From: a bacterium
Lineage (GTDB): Bacteria > Acidobacteriota > Thermoanaerobaculia > Multivoradales > JAHEKO01
Direction: 5' to 3'
Length of the DNA: 38,087 nt
NCBI GenBank assembly: GCA_024224155.1
Contig: JAAENP010000217.1
Coordinates: 1-38,087 of the forward strand
A program made the translations under genes and the position numbers. The notes beneath the pieces are model-generated. The model searched no databases, had not been told where the DNA came from, and saw only the letters and a list, made by a program, of their open reading frames with translations. Of the stretch, positions 14,053 to 19,343 are shown one piece after another. Every line of letters begins with the position of its first letter. Within the stretch, counting starts at the first letter, position 1.

Positions 14053-14631
14053 TTAATACTTGACTTCAAATTCCTCGGGCGGAGGATTGAAAATCTCTTC
14101 ACGGAATGCGGTGTCCCAGGGCTGCAGCTCCACCATCAGGCTGACGGTCCGGCGCGCCACGACCTCCGGGCTGGCCGGCGGCGGCCCCGTACCCGTCCAA
14201 CCGATCCGTTCGGACTGCGCCGACACGGCGTGGTTGACCAGTTGCTTTTTCTGGGGCCCCTGATTGATCTCGCACAACGCGCAGGCGCCAGACTGGATGG
14301 CGAGAAATGGGGATATGTTGACGCGATTGGCCAGGTGGTAGTTCTGAGCCCGGTCCTCTTGATTCATGCGGAAGGTGAAGGGGTCCTGGCCGCTTCGAGT
14401 GAGCGCCCTGGCGGTCCCGATCGCGACCCCCGAGTCCGCGGAGTAGAAGGTCTGCTCGATGGTCTTTTCGTTGGCCGAGATCTGCATCTCGGTCTGGGTG
14501 ACCACGGAGAGCGATAGTCCGATGATCATCAGGACGACCATCGCCATCAACGAAATGATGTAGGCGCTGCCGGCCTCGCGGCGGGCAAACTTGGACTCGC
14601 TCATTCTCGTACTGTTCCTGGAACTGTTCAT
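14053..14631 (-). CDS. PilX-like minor pilin
   Basis: A 192-residue protein. Residues 18-45 (REAGSAYIISLMAMVVLMII) form the PilX_N hydrophobic segment with a class III-like cleavage after G21. As in PilX/GspK proteins there is no Glu at position +5, unlike the other pilins of this operon. The following helix TQTEMQISANEKTIEQTFYSADSGVAIG is the conserved E..I..N......A...AD.G pattern. A CALC motif lies in the globular part. The start at 14631 has AGGAG about 9 nt upstream, overlapping the pilW stop; an internal ATG at 14604 is a weaker alternative. Role by family: part of the priming tip complex with PilV, PilW, FimT and PilY1. Confidence 0.87.
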   Translation of the reverse strand: MNSSRNSTRMSESKFARREAGSAYIISLMAMVVLMIIGLSLSVVTQTEMQISANEKTIEQTFYSADSGVAIGTARALTRSGQDPFTFRMNQEDRAQNYHLANRVNISPFLAIQSGACALCEINQGPQKKQLVNHAVSAQSERIGWTGTGPPPASPEVVARRTVSLMVELQPWDTAFREEIFNPPPEEFEVKY

Positions 14632-14642
14632 CCGGGCGACTC

Positions 14643-15929
14643 CTATAGGTTCCTGAAATCGATGACCGATTGGACCTGGCGGCGGCGGTAGCGGCGATCC
14701 GACAGCTGGGCTTTGTCGGCCGGCGTGTCCGGCTCGTTGTAGATGCGGTCCTCGATGCTGGTGATGGGCGGGGCCACGTACTTCATGTCTCGCTGATCCG
14801 TCCGAACCAGTGCGGTGATGCGCATCAGCTTGAGCGGGCTGCCGTTCCAGACCCAGGGTGGCGCCGCCTGGTCGAGGGCGTCGTCCTTGTGATTGAACAG
14901 CCACTCGTCCGTGGCATTGGCGCCATCGTTGACGATGCCGTCGCCATTGGAGTCGACTCCCAGCGCGATCTGGAGATCCCAGACGTTGTCGGCGATGTCT
15001 TCGGCCGCCGACGGATTACTCGGGTGGATGTCATTGGAGCCCGGATAGAAGCGCGCGCGGGAGAGCCGCGGCACGAGCGTCCGGTTCGGATCGGTCGTAT
15101 CCGTCGTATCGCGGAGGTAGTAGCGGTACTCCTCGAGCACTCCGACATAGGCGGCCGAGGTCATCTGGGGCGGAAAAACACCGTTCGGCATCAACTGCTG
15201 GTAGTACGTGGCCTGCCGCGTGCCAGCGGTTCTGACGAAGTTCAAGGTAACGCCCTGAATCTCGTTCTCTCCGTCGATCACCGTTTGAGCGATCGTGCCG
15301 CCGGTGAGCTCGACGATTCCGTACAGACTCGTTCCAAGCGGGCTGACCACGATCAGTGCCTCGGGGTCACCGCCGTTGGCGTTGGTCACGGCCTCTGCCA
15401 GCACACCCAGATCCTGCTCCACACCCATCGCGCTCAGCCTGCCGACAGTGAGCGTGTTGCCCCCAAACTGGGGCACCGAAACCTGGCTCTGGTAGACCGA
15501 GCCGAAGAGCACACCGCGAACGGTCAGGGTGTCGGTCCCGGGCAGAATCGGCGGCGTGGTCGCGCCACCGATTCGAGTGCCCGCGGCGACGTTGTTACCG
15601 ATCGTGAGAGCGGCGCCGTTCGGCAACAACTGACCGGTGTAGGGTGCGTTCGGGGGTATGAAGGTCGGCAGCCCACCGCGGCCCGCCATGCGCGCATAGC
15701 GCTGGGTGTCGTAGAGAGCGACCCGGAGATTCTGCTGAAGGTCGGCCAGCTGGGTCTGGTTCCTTGCGACTCGCACGCTGACCTGAAACAGCGACAGGAC
15801 CCCGACCATGACCATGACCGTAATCGTCATGGCCAGCATCATCTCGATCAAGGTGAAGCCCTCGGAGACGCGTTTCCCAGACCTTCGGTTTCGGTCCCGG
15901 CTTCGATTCGATTGCTTGGCTGTACTCAT
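14643..15929 (-). CDS. PilW-like minor pilin
   Basis: A 428-residue prepilin. A basic leader is cleaved between G24 and F25 (SEG/FTLIEMMLAM, Glu at +5), followed by a 20-residue hydrophobic helix. The conserved PilW opening is ...LADLQQNLRVALYDTQRYARMAGRGG. The globular domain is long and includes DSNGDGIVND (about 323-332), a D-x-N-x-D-type loop that may bind calcium, and a terminal LMRITALVRTDQRD strand. It lies 20 nt after pilV and 11 nt before pilX, so it is co-transcribed. Confidence 0.9.
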   Translation of the reverse strand: MSTAKQSNRSRDRNRRSGKRVSEGFTLIEMMLAMTITVMVMVGVLSLFQVSVRVARNQTQLADLQQNLRVALYDTQRYARMAGRGGLPTFIPPNAPYTGQLLPNGAALTIGNNVAAGTRIGGATTPPILPGTDTLTVRGVLFGSVYQSQVSVPQFGGNTLTVGRLSAMGVEQDLGVLAEAVTNANGGDPEALIVVSPLGTSLYGIVELTGGTIAQTVIDGENEIQGVTLNFVRTAGTRQATYYQQLMPNGVFPPQMTSAAYVGVLEEYRYYLRDTTDTTDPNRTLVPRLSRARFYPGSNDIHPSNPSAAEDIADNVWDLQIALGVDSNGDGIVNDGANATDEWLFNHKDDALDQAAPPWVWNGSPLKLMRITALVRTDQRDMKYVAPPITSIEDRIYNEPDTPADKAQLSDRRYRRRQVQSVIDFRNL

Positions 15930-15949: not shown

Positions 15950-16492
15950 TCAGTTCGATCGGATGGTGTTCAAGGTGATGGTCCGAGCCGGTCCGAGCAG
16001 ACTCGATTGACCGCCACGCTGGACCTCGATCAGCACCTGCTTCAAATGAACATTGCCGACGTGGGCGGTACCCTGCAGCGCCTCGGTCTCGTCGAGCACC
16101 TCGTCATCGATCGCGCTGATGTGAAACTGCCGCACGGTGACCGTCTTCGACCACAGGTAGCTGGTTCCGGCGGGCGCCGGCGCGTCCTCCCAAGTGTGCG
16201 TCGCGGGATCGAAGTACTGGTCGTTTACCAGCTCACCGCTGCCGGAGGGAACATCCATCACGGGTACCGGAGCTCCTGTTGGGTCACTGAAAGGCGCCTG
16301 AAAGTAGTTTTCCATCTCTGACCGTGCGAAAGCGGCCGCGCGCGTGTTGTCGTAGGCCATCTGGTTGGTGACCGTCGAGCGAGTAAAGATCGGCACCACG
16401 CCGAGCAGCACAATGAGCAGGAAAAAGCTCGCTACCAGCACTTCGATCAGCGAAAAGCCTTCTGACCTGCGCAATGACTTCATGTTTCTCAT
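15950..16492 (-). CDS. PilV-like minor pilin
   Basis: A 180-residue prepilin with leader MRNMKSLRRSEG/FSLIEVLVAS: cleavage after G12, Glu at +5. The hydrophobic helix FFLLIVLLGVVPIFTRSTV follows. The body is of PilV type (ARSEMENYFQAPF; terminal VEVQRGG-like strand LIEVQRGGQSS). The ATG at 16492 is used; the ATG at 16483 is an alternative and neither has a strong Shine-Dalgarno. The longer in-frame extension to 16654 overlaps fimT and is rejected. Second gene of the operon, 20 nt after the FimT-like stop. Confidence 0.88.
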   Translation of the reverse strand: MRNMKSLRRSEGFSLIEVLVASFFLLIVLLGVVPIFTRSTVTNQMAYDNTRAAAFARSEMENYFQAPFSDPTGAPVPVMDVPSGSGELVNDQYFDPATHTWEDAPAPAGTSYLWSKTVTVRQFHISAIDDEVLDETEALQGTAHVGNVHLKQVLIEVQRGGQSSLLGPARTITLNTIRSN

Positions 16493-16512
16493 CTCGTTCG
16501 CCGACCTTTCGT

Positions 16513-17097
16513 CTAGTACCAGACCCAAGGATGCGGGCCTTCGTCCCGAGCCCACCACTTGGCTCCGTCCCACTTTCTGATCTCGATCCGGGCGACCGAC
16601 CGGGGCTGGACGCTCACTTCCAGGAAATTGCGCGGATTGGCCGGATGGTCGCACAACCGGTACCCCCCCACCGCATCGACCGAGCCGTCCGCATTGAAAC
16701 GTGCCTTGGTCGTGCCATCGAAGCCCCAGATCGCTCCTCCGAGAGCCGCCGCCGGCTTGCCGATGTAGAGACCGGCCTGCAGGGTCGTGCGCATCAACAC
16801 CTCTTCGCCGACATCGAGCAGGCCGTCGTCGTTGTCGTCAACCCACGACAGGATCTCTCGAGTCCCGCCGTCGATCGAATAGACCGTCGGCCGGCTGTTC
16901 TTGAGCGCCTGGTAACGAGCCAGGCGAAGCCCGTTCGTGGTCTCCGTGGCGGTGCCCATCAGCTTGTTTCTGTTGATCAACTTGTCGAGCGCGGGGAAAC
17001 CGATCAGCACGATCAGGGCGACCAGAGCCATTACGATCATTAGCTCAATCAAGGTGAAGCCTCGGCGAAGTACAGATTTGGGTTTGCGGCAGTTCAT
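16513..17097 (-). CDS. FimT/GspH-like minor pseudopilin
   Basis: A 194-residue prepilin: leader MNCRKPKSVLRRG/FTLIELMIVM with cleavage after G13 and Glu at +5, then a GspH/FimT-type body (NRNKLMGTATETTNGLRLARYQALKNSRPTVY). DDNDDGLLD at 87-95 is a calcium-loop-like acidic motif. First gene of the minor-pilin operon. The start codon has no convincing Shine-Dalgarno, and a -24/-12 promoter match ends about 15 bp upstream, so the message may be nearly leaderless. Role by family: initiates pilus assembly with PilV/W/X/Y1. Confidence 0.9.
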   Translation of the reverse strand: MNCRKPKSVLRRGFTLIELMIVMALVALIVLIGFPALDKLINRNKLMGTATETTNGLRLARYQALKNSRPTVYSIDGGTREILSWVDDNDDGLLDVGEEVLMRTTLQAGLYIGKPAAALGGAIWGFDGTTKARFNADGSVDAVGGYRLCDHPANPRNFLEVSVQPRSVARIEIRKWDGAKWWARDEGPHPWVWY

Positions 17098-17112
17098 GGC
17101 TTGGTCCAGCTA

Positions 17113-17129
17113 GCGCAAATCGAGTGCCA
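17113..17129 (-). promoter_or_regulatory. Sigma-54 (-24/-12) promoter match for the minor-pilin operon
   Basis: Minus strand reads TGGCACTCGATTTGCGC: the essential GG and GC are separated by exactly 10 bases, and TGGCAC-N5-TTGC matches the consensus at nearly every position. The predicted start is near 17103, only about 6 nt before the FimT ATG. Many type IV pilus genes use sigma-54. Confidence 0.55.
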
Positions 17130-17161
17130 AAGCTCGGCAGCGCTCGCCAGAGAGCCCTAAC

Positions 17162-17173
17162 GTTCTCAAGAAC
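17162..17173. promoter_or_regulatory. Inverted repeat upstream of the pilin promoter
   Basis: GTTCT-CA-AGAAC lies about 60-70 bp upstream of the predicted transcription start. It has the size of an activator half-turn site, with no known protein assigned. Confidence 0.3.
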
Positions 17174-17185
17174 AACGGTTTAGCC

Positions 17186-17212
17186 TCGAGACCGCGGGAT
17201 TCGGTCGAGACC
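17186..17212. promoter_or_regulatory. Paired TCGAGACC direct repeats, possible upstream activating sequence
   Basis: TCGAGACC occurs at 17186-17193 and 17205-17212, about 83-109 bp upstream of the predicted sigma-54 start. This is the usual distance for enhancer-binding-protein sites. Assignment is inference from position and repetition only. Confidence 0.3.
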
Positions 17213-17302
17213 CCGCCAGGCCTGCAGTTGTTACCAAACGAAACGCTTCTGCCAAGACTCGGCAACGCCCACGGGGGGGCAGGTGGCCCCAAACGCGCTC
17301 CC

Positions 17303-18343
17303 TCAGCGCAGGGACTTGGCTTGGACAAGCGCCGAGACGCGAAGCCGACGCGGTTCGAGCATGCGGGCGGCGTTCTGAGCAACCAGAGCCCACTCGCGGT
17401 CACCCTCACTCAGGTAGCCAAAGGCGGAGGCCGGCCGGCCGGCCACGCATTCGGTCACGCCCCGCCGGTAGTGCTTGAGCATGCGAGCCACTCGAATCGA
17501 GAGCCCGCGCGAAGGCGCGCCCTGCTCGAATCCTGAATCGATTCCAGCCAGCACCGAGCCGAACGCTCGGCAGGCATTTCGAGATCCTGCCAGCGAGTAA
17601 CTCTCGATCTCGAACTGCAGATCCCGTCGGCTGGTTCGCAGGGCACCGCCCTCGCGCCTAAAGATCGCGGACCAGCGTTCGACACGCTCGCGGTGCTTCC
17701 GGCTGCCGGCCCGGATGACGATGCTGGCGCGCTCGGGCTCAGGATCCGCACGGGCGTCCGGAGATTGCTCGGAGGTCGACTCGCCAGGAGCGGCTGCGGC
17801 ACCGGACTGCGGAGCCTCGGGCAGAGACGCCAGTGTCGCTGTCCACGAGTCGGCGGGCGGCGCGAGCTGCTCCCGGTGATTCTCTACAGCCCGGCTCGCC
17901 GCTTCGGTGAGACGCTCGAGATGGGCCGTGACGAGCTCGCGTCGCTGCCGAGGGCTCGAGCCGACCCGTGAGCTCTGTGGCTGGTCCCGCCCCAGCGGAG
18001 CCACCTCTTGGCCGGCGCAGCGCCGCAGCGACCGGCCCCGGGCCTCGAGAATCGAAGCTCGCGATCTCGCGTCGCGAATGGTTGCCGCCAGCTCCCGGAC
18101 GATCTCGAGCGCTTCCGCGCCGACCGCCAACCGGGCGGCCAGCGCGGTGGAGAGCTCGCTCGAAGCCGCCGGCCGGATGGGTTTCCGGCAGAGCTCATCG
18201 GCCTCGGCAAGCAGCGCCCACGCCACCTCATTCGGATCCGTGGACGTCCGGACCGAGAGGGTTCCGAGCCACAGAGCCAGGCCGGCGACCAGGGCCGCCG
18301 CGGCCAGAATCAAACAGGTCTTCGTGCTGAAGCGGGGCATCAT
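17303..18343 (-). CDS. Membrane-anchored protein of unknown function
   Basis: A 346-residue protein that I do not recognise. Residues 8-28 form a single N-terminal membrane segment (TCLILAAAALVAGLALWLG), with the rest predicted outside the cytoplasm. Two Arg/Ala-rich helical regions (about 40-170 and 245-346) flank a Pro/Ser/Glu linker (about 180-210). Isolated cysteines (about 53, 110, 260, 305) could form disulfides. A GGAG precedes the start, which can be either of two adjacent ATGs (18343 or 18340). It is on the same strand as and 205 bp upstream of the pilin operon, and divergent from the glycosyltransferase. A pilus-related role is possible but unsupported. Confidence 0.75.
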   Translation of the reverse strand: MMPRFSTKTCLILAAAALVAGLALWLGTLSVRTSTDPNEVAWALLAEADELCRKPIRPAASSELSTALAARLAVGAEALEIVRELAATIRDARSRASILEARGRSLRRCAGQEVAPLGRDQPQSSRVGSSPRQRRELVTAHLERLTEAASRAVENHREQLAPPADSWTATLASLPEAPQSGAAAAPGESTSEQSPDARADPEPERASIVIRAGSRKHRERVERWSAIFRREGGALRTSRRDLQFEIESYSLAGSRNACRAFGSVLAGIDSGFEQGAPSRGLSIRVARMLKHYRRGVTECVAGRPASAFGYLSEGDREWALVAQNAARMLEPRRLRVSALVQAKSLR

Positions 18344-18416
18344 GGGTCTCTCCTCATCCGGGACAGACGCGAACCCAGCCAGCTTTCTGGCGCTCGGCTA
18401 GAATCTCTTCGTTTTG

Positions 18417-19343
18417 ATGAGCAATCCGAACACCCCCCGCGTTGCGGCGCTGGTGCTGAACTACAACGGCAAGGACATCACTCTCCAATCGCTGGCCAGC
18501 CTGGAGAAGATGGTCTATCCGTCTTTCGATCTCATTCATATAGACAATGGGTCGACCGACGGCTCCAGCGAGGCGGTCCGGGAGCAACATCCCCGAGTCA
18601 TCCAGATCCGTGTAGAACAGAACAGCGGCGCTGCCAATGGAATGAACGCCGGGCTCGTCTACGCTTGCCGGGAGAAGTACGACTACATCCTAGCCTTGAA
18701 CAACGACATCGAAGTCGACCCGGAGATGCTCACCGAGCTGATGAAGGTCGCCGAAGGCACCGAGGACCTCGGCTGCGTCGGTCCGAAGGCTTATTACTAC
18801 TGGGCGCGGGAGAAGATCTGGTCCGCCGGCGGCATCATCCGGTTCAAGGAGTCGGTGACCCGTGAACGAGGCATGCTCGAAGACGACCACGGCCAGTACG
18901 ACCGCGATCAGGAGGTCTCGTACATCAACGGCTGCGCCCTCTTGACGCCGCGGCGCGTGGTTGAAGCGATCGGACTCTGGGACCCCATCTTCCACCTGGC
19001 CGTGGAGGACGCCGACTGGTGCATGCGTATGAAACAGCGCGGCTATCGCTGCATGTATGCCCACCGCGCCAAGCTCTGGCATATGGTCTCCCACACCGCC
19101 GGCGGCTACGTGCCCCGCCGGACCTTCAACACCGGGCGCAGCGCCGCCCTCTTCGTGAGGCGTTACGCCAACCCCTGGCAGTGGCTGACGTTCTTGGGGT
19201 TCACGGCGGCCGGCGTCGTCTGGGCCTTCTTCAGGGAGCTGCCAAGGGGCAATCAGATGGCCGCGATCAAGAAAGCCCACGGAGTTCTCGTCGGCCTGGG
19301 GACCAGAATGCCGAAGCCTCCCGGGCTGAAGGGTTCTTCTTAA
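18417..19343 (+). CDS. Family 2 glycosyltransferase (rhamnosyltransferase-like)
   Basis: A 308-residue GT-A enzyme. Seen: VAALVLNYNGKDITLQSLASL (9-29), HIDNGSTDGS (41-50), NSGAANGMNAGL, the metal-binding region ALNNDIEVD (93-101), YINGCALLTPRRVVEAIGLWDP, and the acceptor-site LAVEDADWCMRMKQRGYR with a catalytic-type ED near residue 190. A C-terminal hydrophobic stretch WLTFLGFTAAGVVWAFFRELP may tether it to the membrane. Family role: transfer of a sugar, often rhamnose, to surface polysaccharide or glycolipid. The ATG at 18417 is preferred over the TTG at 18414. No other glycan genes are adjacent. Confidence 0.9.
   Translation: MSNPNTPRVAALVLNYNGKDITLQSLASLEKMVYPSFDLIHIDNGSTDGSSEAVREQHPRVIQIRVEQNSGAANGMNAGLVYACREKYDYILALNNDIEVDPEMLTELMKVAEGTEDLGCVGPKAYYYWAREKIWSAGGIIRFKESVTRERGMLEDDHGQYDRDQEVSYINGCALLTPRRVVEAIGLWDPIFHLAVEDADWCMRMKQRGYRCMYAHRAKLWHMVSHTAGGYVPRRTFNTGRSAALFVRRYANPWQWLTFLGFTAAGVVWAFFRELPRGNQMAAIKKAHGVLVGLGTRMPKPPGLKGSS

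Follow-up and report, generated by a model that had tools for sequence, protein, structure and literature searches.

What drives expression of the minor-pilin operon headed by fimT, and can a promoter lying almost against the first ATG leave room for an ordinary mRNA leader? The question is raised by a 38,087-nucleotide stretch of acidobacterial DNA (contig JAAENP010000217.1; hereafter the window), for which a preliminary description had proposed a sigma-54 promoter, a nearly leaderless fimT and upstream repeats placed where an activator could bind. The features discussed are collected in Table 1. The gap between fimT and the gene before it (17303-18343, co-directional with fimT and without a Pfam match at E<=0.001) is 205 bp. 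We consider it probable that these 205 bp form a complete sigma-54 enhancer-promoter of fimT-pilV-pilW-pilX-pilY1, giving a short leader and SD-less translation of fimT. Within the operon, the pilV-like open reading frame has no whole-ORF Pfam match at E<=0.001, and translation of it probably begins not at the first GTG but at an ATG downstream of that codon.

Table 1. Features of the fimT locus, in window coordinates.
Feature	Position	Strand	Basis
fimT/GspH-type minor pilin, 194 aa, first gene of the operon	16513..17097	-	Pfam N_methyl, GspH
pilV-like minor prepilin, ORF from first GTG	15950..16654	-	N_methyl motif at 16397-16471
PilW	14643..15929	-	Pfam PilW, N_methyl
PilX	14053..14904	-	Pfam PilX_N
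PilY1, 1197 aa	10427..14020	-	Pfam T4P_PilY1
-24/-12 sigma-54 promoter TGGCACTCGATTTGC	17115..17129	-	exact match; 24 fimT promoters with the element, 10/10 in 15
Predicted 5' leader, 5-6 nt, without Shine-Dalgarno	17098..17103	-	inferred; spacing rule with C = -12
IHF-like element UAS1 TAAACCGTTGTTCTTGAGAACGTTAGG, near -66, containing the GTTCT/AGAAC repeat	17156..17182	-	EM motif
TCGAGACC pair, not conserved	17186..17212	-	found in 0/23 relatives; word occurs 15 times in the window
Enhancer dyad UAS2 CGTTTCGTTTGGTAACAA, consensus TGTTAC-N5-GTAACGA, near -133	17228..17245	-	EM motif

Read directly from the minus strand, the promoter consists of TGGCAC (17129-17124), five intervening bases (17123-17119) and TTGC (17118-17115), with the fimT ATG following at 17097-17095, 17 nt past the TTGC. 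The TGGCAC-N5-TTGC element and its GG-N10-GC spacing are thus confirmed as first described: the spacing is exact, and the exact pattern occurs once in the 38 kb. A single match is weak evidence when taken alone, since the 5.7 Mb genome contains the exact pattern 16 times and its reversed control 7 times; the weight of the argument comes from the relatives. With up to two mismatches, the window gave 24 matches against a chance mean of 27.2, which is not above chance. The genome encodes RpoN (Sigma54_AID domain, in an open frame of 514 aa), as do 68 of the 72 genomes of the order in all, and it has 22 matches to PF00158, 16 of them strong. A sigma-70 promoter close to the fimT start was also considered and set aside, a consensus scan of 16000-18500 having returned none.

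Of 98 genomes, 86 gave FimT relatives, and a search with an alignment of 20 detected FimT at E<=1e-12 in 69 of the 72 genomes of the order; the distant homologues beyond L077, many of which match over a short N-terminal stretch and belong to other groups, were left out. The 43 rows entered gave a fimT result for 40 loci, those without one being G005 and G014 (no motif) and a second G013 row (downstream pilin only); G005 was recovered later. We kept 24 of the 40 loci, chosen for having the element, i.e. at least 8 of 10 bases with GG and GC intact, upstream of the start. At least nine bases are present in 22 of these and all ten in 15; among 2,400 shuffled upstream regions, nine bases were reached in 0.5% and ten in none. 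The remaining 16 loci (six from family f9, three each from f1 and f3, two each from f2 and f6) include those with fewer than eight bases (e.g. most of f9, f2 and f3), two at 8/10 that have lost GC or GG (G004, G063) and three at 8/10 whose match falls within a coding region or is over 100 nt away from the start (G002, G030, G067). Among the loci not kept, which weigh against the proposal, is G002, from the same genus as the window; G009 was kept although its element is 161 nt from the start. Six loci were then added to the 24; in f6, an unlinked paralog on contig C10 of G046 was taken first and the regulator-linked copy later. In total, the element stands at fimT in 30 genomes from seven families (f1, f4, f5, f6, f7, f8 and f9) of one order of the class Thermoanaerobaculia, and this recurrence rules out a chance match. 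The predicted sigma-54 control of fimT, already put forward in the preliminary description, is strongly supported by its recurrence in seven families, by RpoN, by the PF00158 genes and by two conserved upstream elements.

Other pilin-related loci were noted during this survey. Upstream of fimT in L022, L025, L028 and L029 (all f9) there is no sigma-54 element and TATAAT- or TATACT-like boxes are visible by eye, which gives the impression of a swapped promoter type. In L354 (G010:C335), outside the 30, an SD precedes a fimT-like start that lies 30 nt beyond an exact sigma-54 site. A second major-pilin-like gene at G000:C370, about 14730-14810 (L050, L190), has a -24/-12-like element (TGGCACGCAATCTGC, 9/10) 15 nt before its ATG, and the pilA-like gene at G000:C154:65493 (L048) has a 9/10 -24/-12 element (TGGCACGGATACTGC), a long leader and an SD.

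The two upstream elements were found by an EM motif search of the 24 upstream regions. The dyad UAS2 reached a log-likelihood of 207 versus at most 59 in 12 shuffles, and UAS1 reached 195 versus at most 94, the shuffles having been run with fewer random starts (40, versus 120 for the real data). UAS2 is present in 23 of the 24 promoters (missing in G006), at -112 to -117 from TGGCAC in 19, -103 to -105 in three and -126 in one; UAS1 is present in all but G003 and G031, 18 of the 22 copies lying at -52/-53 and four at -42/-43. Both elements sit about 10-11 bp closer to the promoter in G011, G032, G038, L381 and L184. Exceptions to this paired shift are G006, which has no UAS2, and G024, with UAS1 at -53 and UAS2 at -126. 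As the phase statistic scores periods of 11 and 13 bp alike, helical phasing of the two elements is no more than suggestive.

Scan matrices were built from 22 (UAS2) and 19 (UAS1) of the 24 EM instances. The UAS2 of the window, which lies in intergenic DNA and reads CGTTTC in its left half-site instead of TGTTAC, is the best match there at 20.8 bits, its own sequence being in the training set. Held-out fimT loci have UAS2 at 17-25 bits in six of seven cases, L378 giving only 11.6 bits and on the other strand. At the other 15 exact sigma-54 sites of the window's genome, UAS2 reaches at most 12.2 bits, and at its pilA 5.3 bits; because fimT alone among the 16 exact sites exceeds 12.2 bits, UAS2 would be an input specific to fimT. 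UAS1-like matches of at least 13 bits are found at two other exact sites of the same genome (L003, L009). Such a distribution would be expected if UAS2 were a specific activator site and UAS1 a general bending site. UAS1 is AT-rich and conserved, lies between the dyad and the promoter, and by eye resembles what we take to be the IHF consensus; the window's genome has four genes of the HU/IHF family. The second-best distinct UAS2 match in the window (15592-15609, minus strand, 16.0 bits) is within the operon. In L030, L033, L174, L176 and others, a histidine-kinase-like gene abuts fimT, and UAS2 apparently coincides with the final codons of that gene, whose products end in, for example, ...IVTMGSE.

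The upstream sites proposed in the preliminary description have to be reassessed accordingly. The GTTCT/AGAAC inverted repeat is indeed present, as GTTCTTGAGAAC at 17173-17162, but it forms the middle of the IHF-like element instead of standing apart as an activator-type site. The paired TCGAGACC repeats also exist, with copies at 17186 and 17205 (-83 to -90 and -102 to -109) that are 19 bp apart, an arrangement that speaks for an activator site at that distance; yet none of the 23 related promoters has them, and the word is common in the window, so we reject TCGAGACC as the enhancer and regard a role as the activator site as highly improbable. The dyad at UAS2, absent from that description, is the better candidate and the probable activator site. 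The two conserved elements also bear on what the promoter does. Sigma-54 polymerase can act as a road-block in other bacteria, and a co-directional gene lies upstream of fimT, so that the bound polymerase might mainly obstruct transcription arriving from there and not serve as the fimT promoter; a dyad and an IHF-like element conserved at set distances are, however, what activation needs, and we give the road-block very little credence.

A candidate activator is suggested by gene neighbourhood. An NtrC-type response regulator family (REC, AAA, HTH_8) scores at least 440 bits in 39 of the 72 genomes, the next match being at 389. In 20 of these 39 genomes it shares a contig with the fimT match, 18 of them having 7-10 kb between the two, G048 about 1 kb and G043 15 kb, and in the eight loci read it lies downstream of a PilY1-sized ORF and is convergent. 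Orthologs are present in 26 of the 30 promoter-bearing genomes and in 13 others; G013, G017, G029 and G041 have the promoter and no ortholog at 440 bits, and G004 and G010, which have the regulator and are outside the 30, have weaker or later-noticed sites (L041, L354). The copy belonging to the window's genome (L384:5299-6579) lies on contig C154, which is not that of fimT, adjoining selA and 7 kb from pilA. From its neighbourhood, this NtrC-type regulator is likely to be the fimT activator. A regulator of PilR type at fimT is plausible, but the copies in G003 and G031 fall below the cut-off of every NCBIfam family listed (best score 25 each). The gene upstream of fimT has a histidine-kinase-like C-terminus in 16 of 25 loci, as read from its last 60 residues, and Pfam confirms a histidine kinase there in six loci. 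The window itself carries at its contig edge (29-2722, plus strand) a fragment of a sigma-54 activator gene with AAA and HTH_8 domains and, behind it, a gene for an OmpR-type response regulator. The fragment (29-964) was considered as the fimT regulator and set aside, the best match of the fimT-linked family in its own genome being the one on C154.

Taken together, these elements allow a scheme to be proposed for the locus. The NtrC-type regulator would bind the dyad near -133, an IHF/HU-type protein would bend the DNA near -66, and the looped activator would then open sigma-54 polymerase at -24/-12. Transcription would begin about 6 nt before the fimT AUG, and fimT, as the first gene, would be translated from a near-leaderless, SD-less mRNA, while the downstream genes, presumably co-transcribed with it, would use ordinary or coupled initiation.

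The start of this mRNA is predicted from a spacing rule in which the C of the GC pair is -12, placing +1 at 17103 (C) or 17102 (A). As first noted, the fimT ATG of the window has no SD: its best duplex, -3.0 kcal/mol, equals the median of 1,388 background ATGs. Start codons in the relatives were assigned by us where several were possible (G003, G020, G051, G054). The gap from TTGC to the start is 13-18 nt in 20 of the 30 loci, with ATG in all 20, and at least 21 nt in the other ten. Among the 24 kept loci, an SD at least as strong as -7 kcal/mol is present in seven of the eight far-gap genes. GGAG is visible in the f6 additions G043 and G051, as judged by eye, none of the four f6 additions having been scored. 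Ten of the 16 short-gap genes also have SD-like bases (<= -6 kcal/mol) between TTGC and ATG, mostly before the predicted +1, and this is what chiefly tells against a wholly leaderless fimT mRNA. It can be explained by an additional transcript, and it suggests that an SD-bearing mRNA starting further upstream may also be made in these relatives. The sigma-54 promoter could then work and yet most FimT come from such longer mRNAs, produced by read-through from the preceding gene or by another promoter, the short-leader mRNA being minor. The SD-like bases, strongest in f4, favour this possibility, as does the co-directional gene ending upstream of fimT, histidine-kinase-like in 16 of 25 loci. They are nevertheless absent at fimT in the window, G003, G021 and G036, the scan of 16000-18500 gave no sigma-70 promoter, and 20 of 30 loci keep a gap of 13-18 nt with varying bases in it; we judge a dominant longer mRNA unlikely, though it is the alternative to be taken most seriously.

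Alternatively, transcription might begin at the sigma-54 site and translation elsewhere, so that the leader is not short. Start codons were assigned from sequence only, and some relatives have a further in-frame ATG, TTG or GTG nearby. In the window, however, the ATG is followed by no further in-frame ATG, GTG or TTG before the codon for the prepilin glycine, and a TAG closes the frame just upstream of the ATG, which makes another start improbable here. The near-leaderless start first proposed for fimT thus stands in part: the kept spacing and the SD contrast between short and long gaps argue for it indirectly, and the SD-like bases of many short-gap relatives argue against its being the whole account.

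A short-leader arrangement may extend beyond fimT. Across the 72 genomes there are 148 instances of the pattern with an ATG 12-19 nt past TTGC, versus 36 for the reversed control. Of these near-start rows, 122 were taken on (f2 and f3 rows and two duplicate starts were left out) and 77 fetched (f1, f4, f5, f7 and f8), and the ATG opens a coding-like frame in 45 of the 77. In f1, 28 of 41 fetched near cases pass the coding-like filter, as do 34 of 57 far cases (20-35 nt) among the matches listed, three rows repeating an already used site having been left out; where a site had several ATGs, near and far cases alike were represented by the ATG with the strongest SD. An SD of <= -6 kcal/mol is found in 3 of 28 near cases versus 29 of 34 far cases among the matches listed (p=1.7e-7), the near value being no different from that of the 1,388 background ATGs (17.7%). 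Only two of the 34 far starts, among the matches listed, fall at 20-24 nt, and intermediate leaders are thus few.

Chance ATGs, which likewise have no SD, must account for some of the near cases. The recurrence of gene families among them argues that others are real near-gap genes. An ArsR-type gene has a gap of 14 nt in G000, G002, G004 and G009, and its G006 copy has an SD and a gap of 28 nt; a propeller hybrid histidine kinase has a near gap in G000 and G002 (for both families, Pfam was run on the G000 copy only); and a family with a signal-peptide-like N-terminus has gaps of 17-18 nt in G008, G013 and G016, all of one genus. The G000 copy of the ArsR-type regulator (C249; L194:2161-2532, minus strand) lies behind a -24/-12 site with its ATG 14 nt past TTGC. 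To judge from these sequences, a short-leader sigma-54 class in f1 looks real. We also propose, as a tentative generalization that we hold at somewhat less than even chances, that the order has two sigma-54 modes, one leadered (about 25-35 nt, with an SD) and one with a short leader (12-19 nt, without an SD), between which orthologs would switch; the latter, used by fimT, the ArsR-type regulator, the propeller hybrid histidine kinase and proteins with signal-peptide-like N-termini, would tie activator-dependent transcription to SD-independent, AUG-led translation.

In Pseudomonas, Myxococcus and Geobacter, for instance, PilS/PilR and sigma-54 control pilA. The system proposed for fimT shares with it an NtrC-type response regulator, a histidine kinase, sigma-54 and type IV pilus genes. 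It differs in its target, a minor-pilin operon instead of pilA, the dyad scoring so low at the pilA of the same genome, and in its regulator, two copies of which pass no cut-off among the NCBIfam families listed. Among the literature examined, the closest known system appears to be pilE of commensal Neisseria, where, in the part of the report available, the major pilin has a -24/-12 promoter controlled by RpoN, IHF and Npa (PMC6528607). The resemblance includes a two-component regulator site upstream and an IHF site in between, both of which are predicted at fimT. The Neisseria promoter, as far as it is described there, serves the major pilin, whereas that of fimT would serve a minor-pilin operon with a near-leaderless start. 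Among the pilus genes covered in that part of the report, pilE alone is under RpoN, four mapped pilus loci start at RpoD-type sites, and minor pilins are not reported as RpoN targets (PMC6528607).

Leaderless genes, with an AUG at or within a few nucleotides of the mRNA 5' end and no SD, as predicted for fimT, are described in the available portions of two studies. On average, 13.3% of genes were predicted to be leaderless in three Acidobacteria, in a survey seeking Pribnow-box-like promoters (Zheng 2011, PMC3160421), and the leaderless genes of C. jejuni are preceded by sigma-70 -10 boxes (PMC3847290). In both, as far as those portions go, the promoters are Pribnow-like or of sigma-70 type, whereas fimT has an abutting sigma-54 promoter. 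A sigma-54 leaderless class would have been missed in the Zheng 2011 survey because Pribnow-like boxes were sought, and in the parts of the literature searched we found no report of such a class or of a sigma-54 minor-pilin operon.

The analysis provides a specific candidate operator together with a candidate regulator for the fimT operon. If the proposed scheme is true, a promoter type that is tightly off or on would be coupled to an SD-independent route of translation, and this would suggest signal-gated control of pilus priming by the minor pilins.
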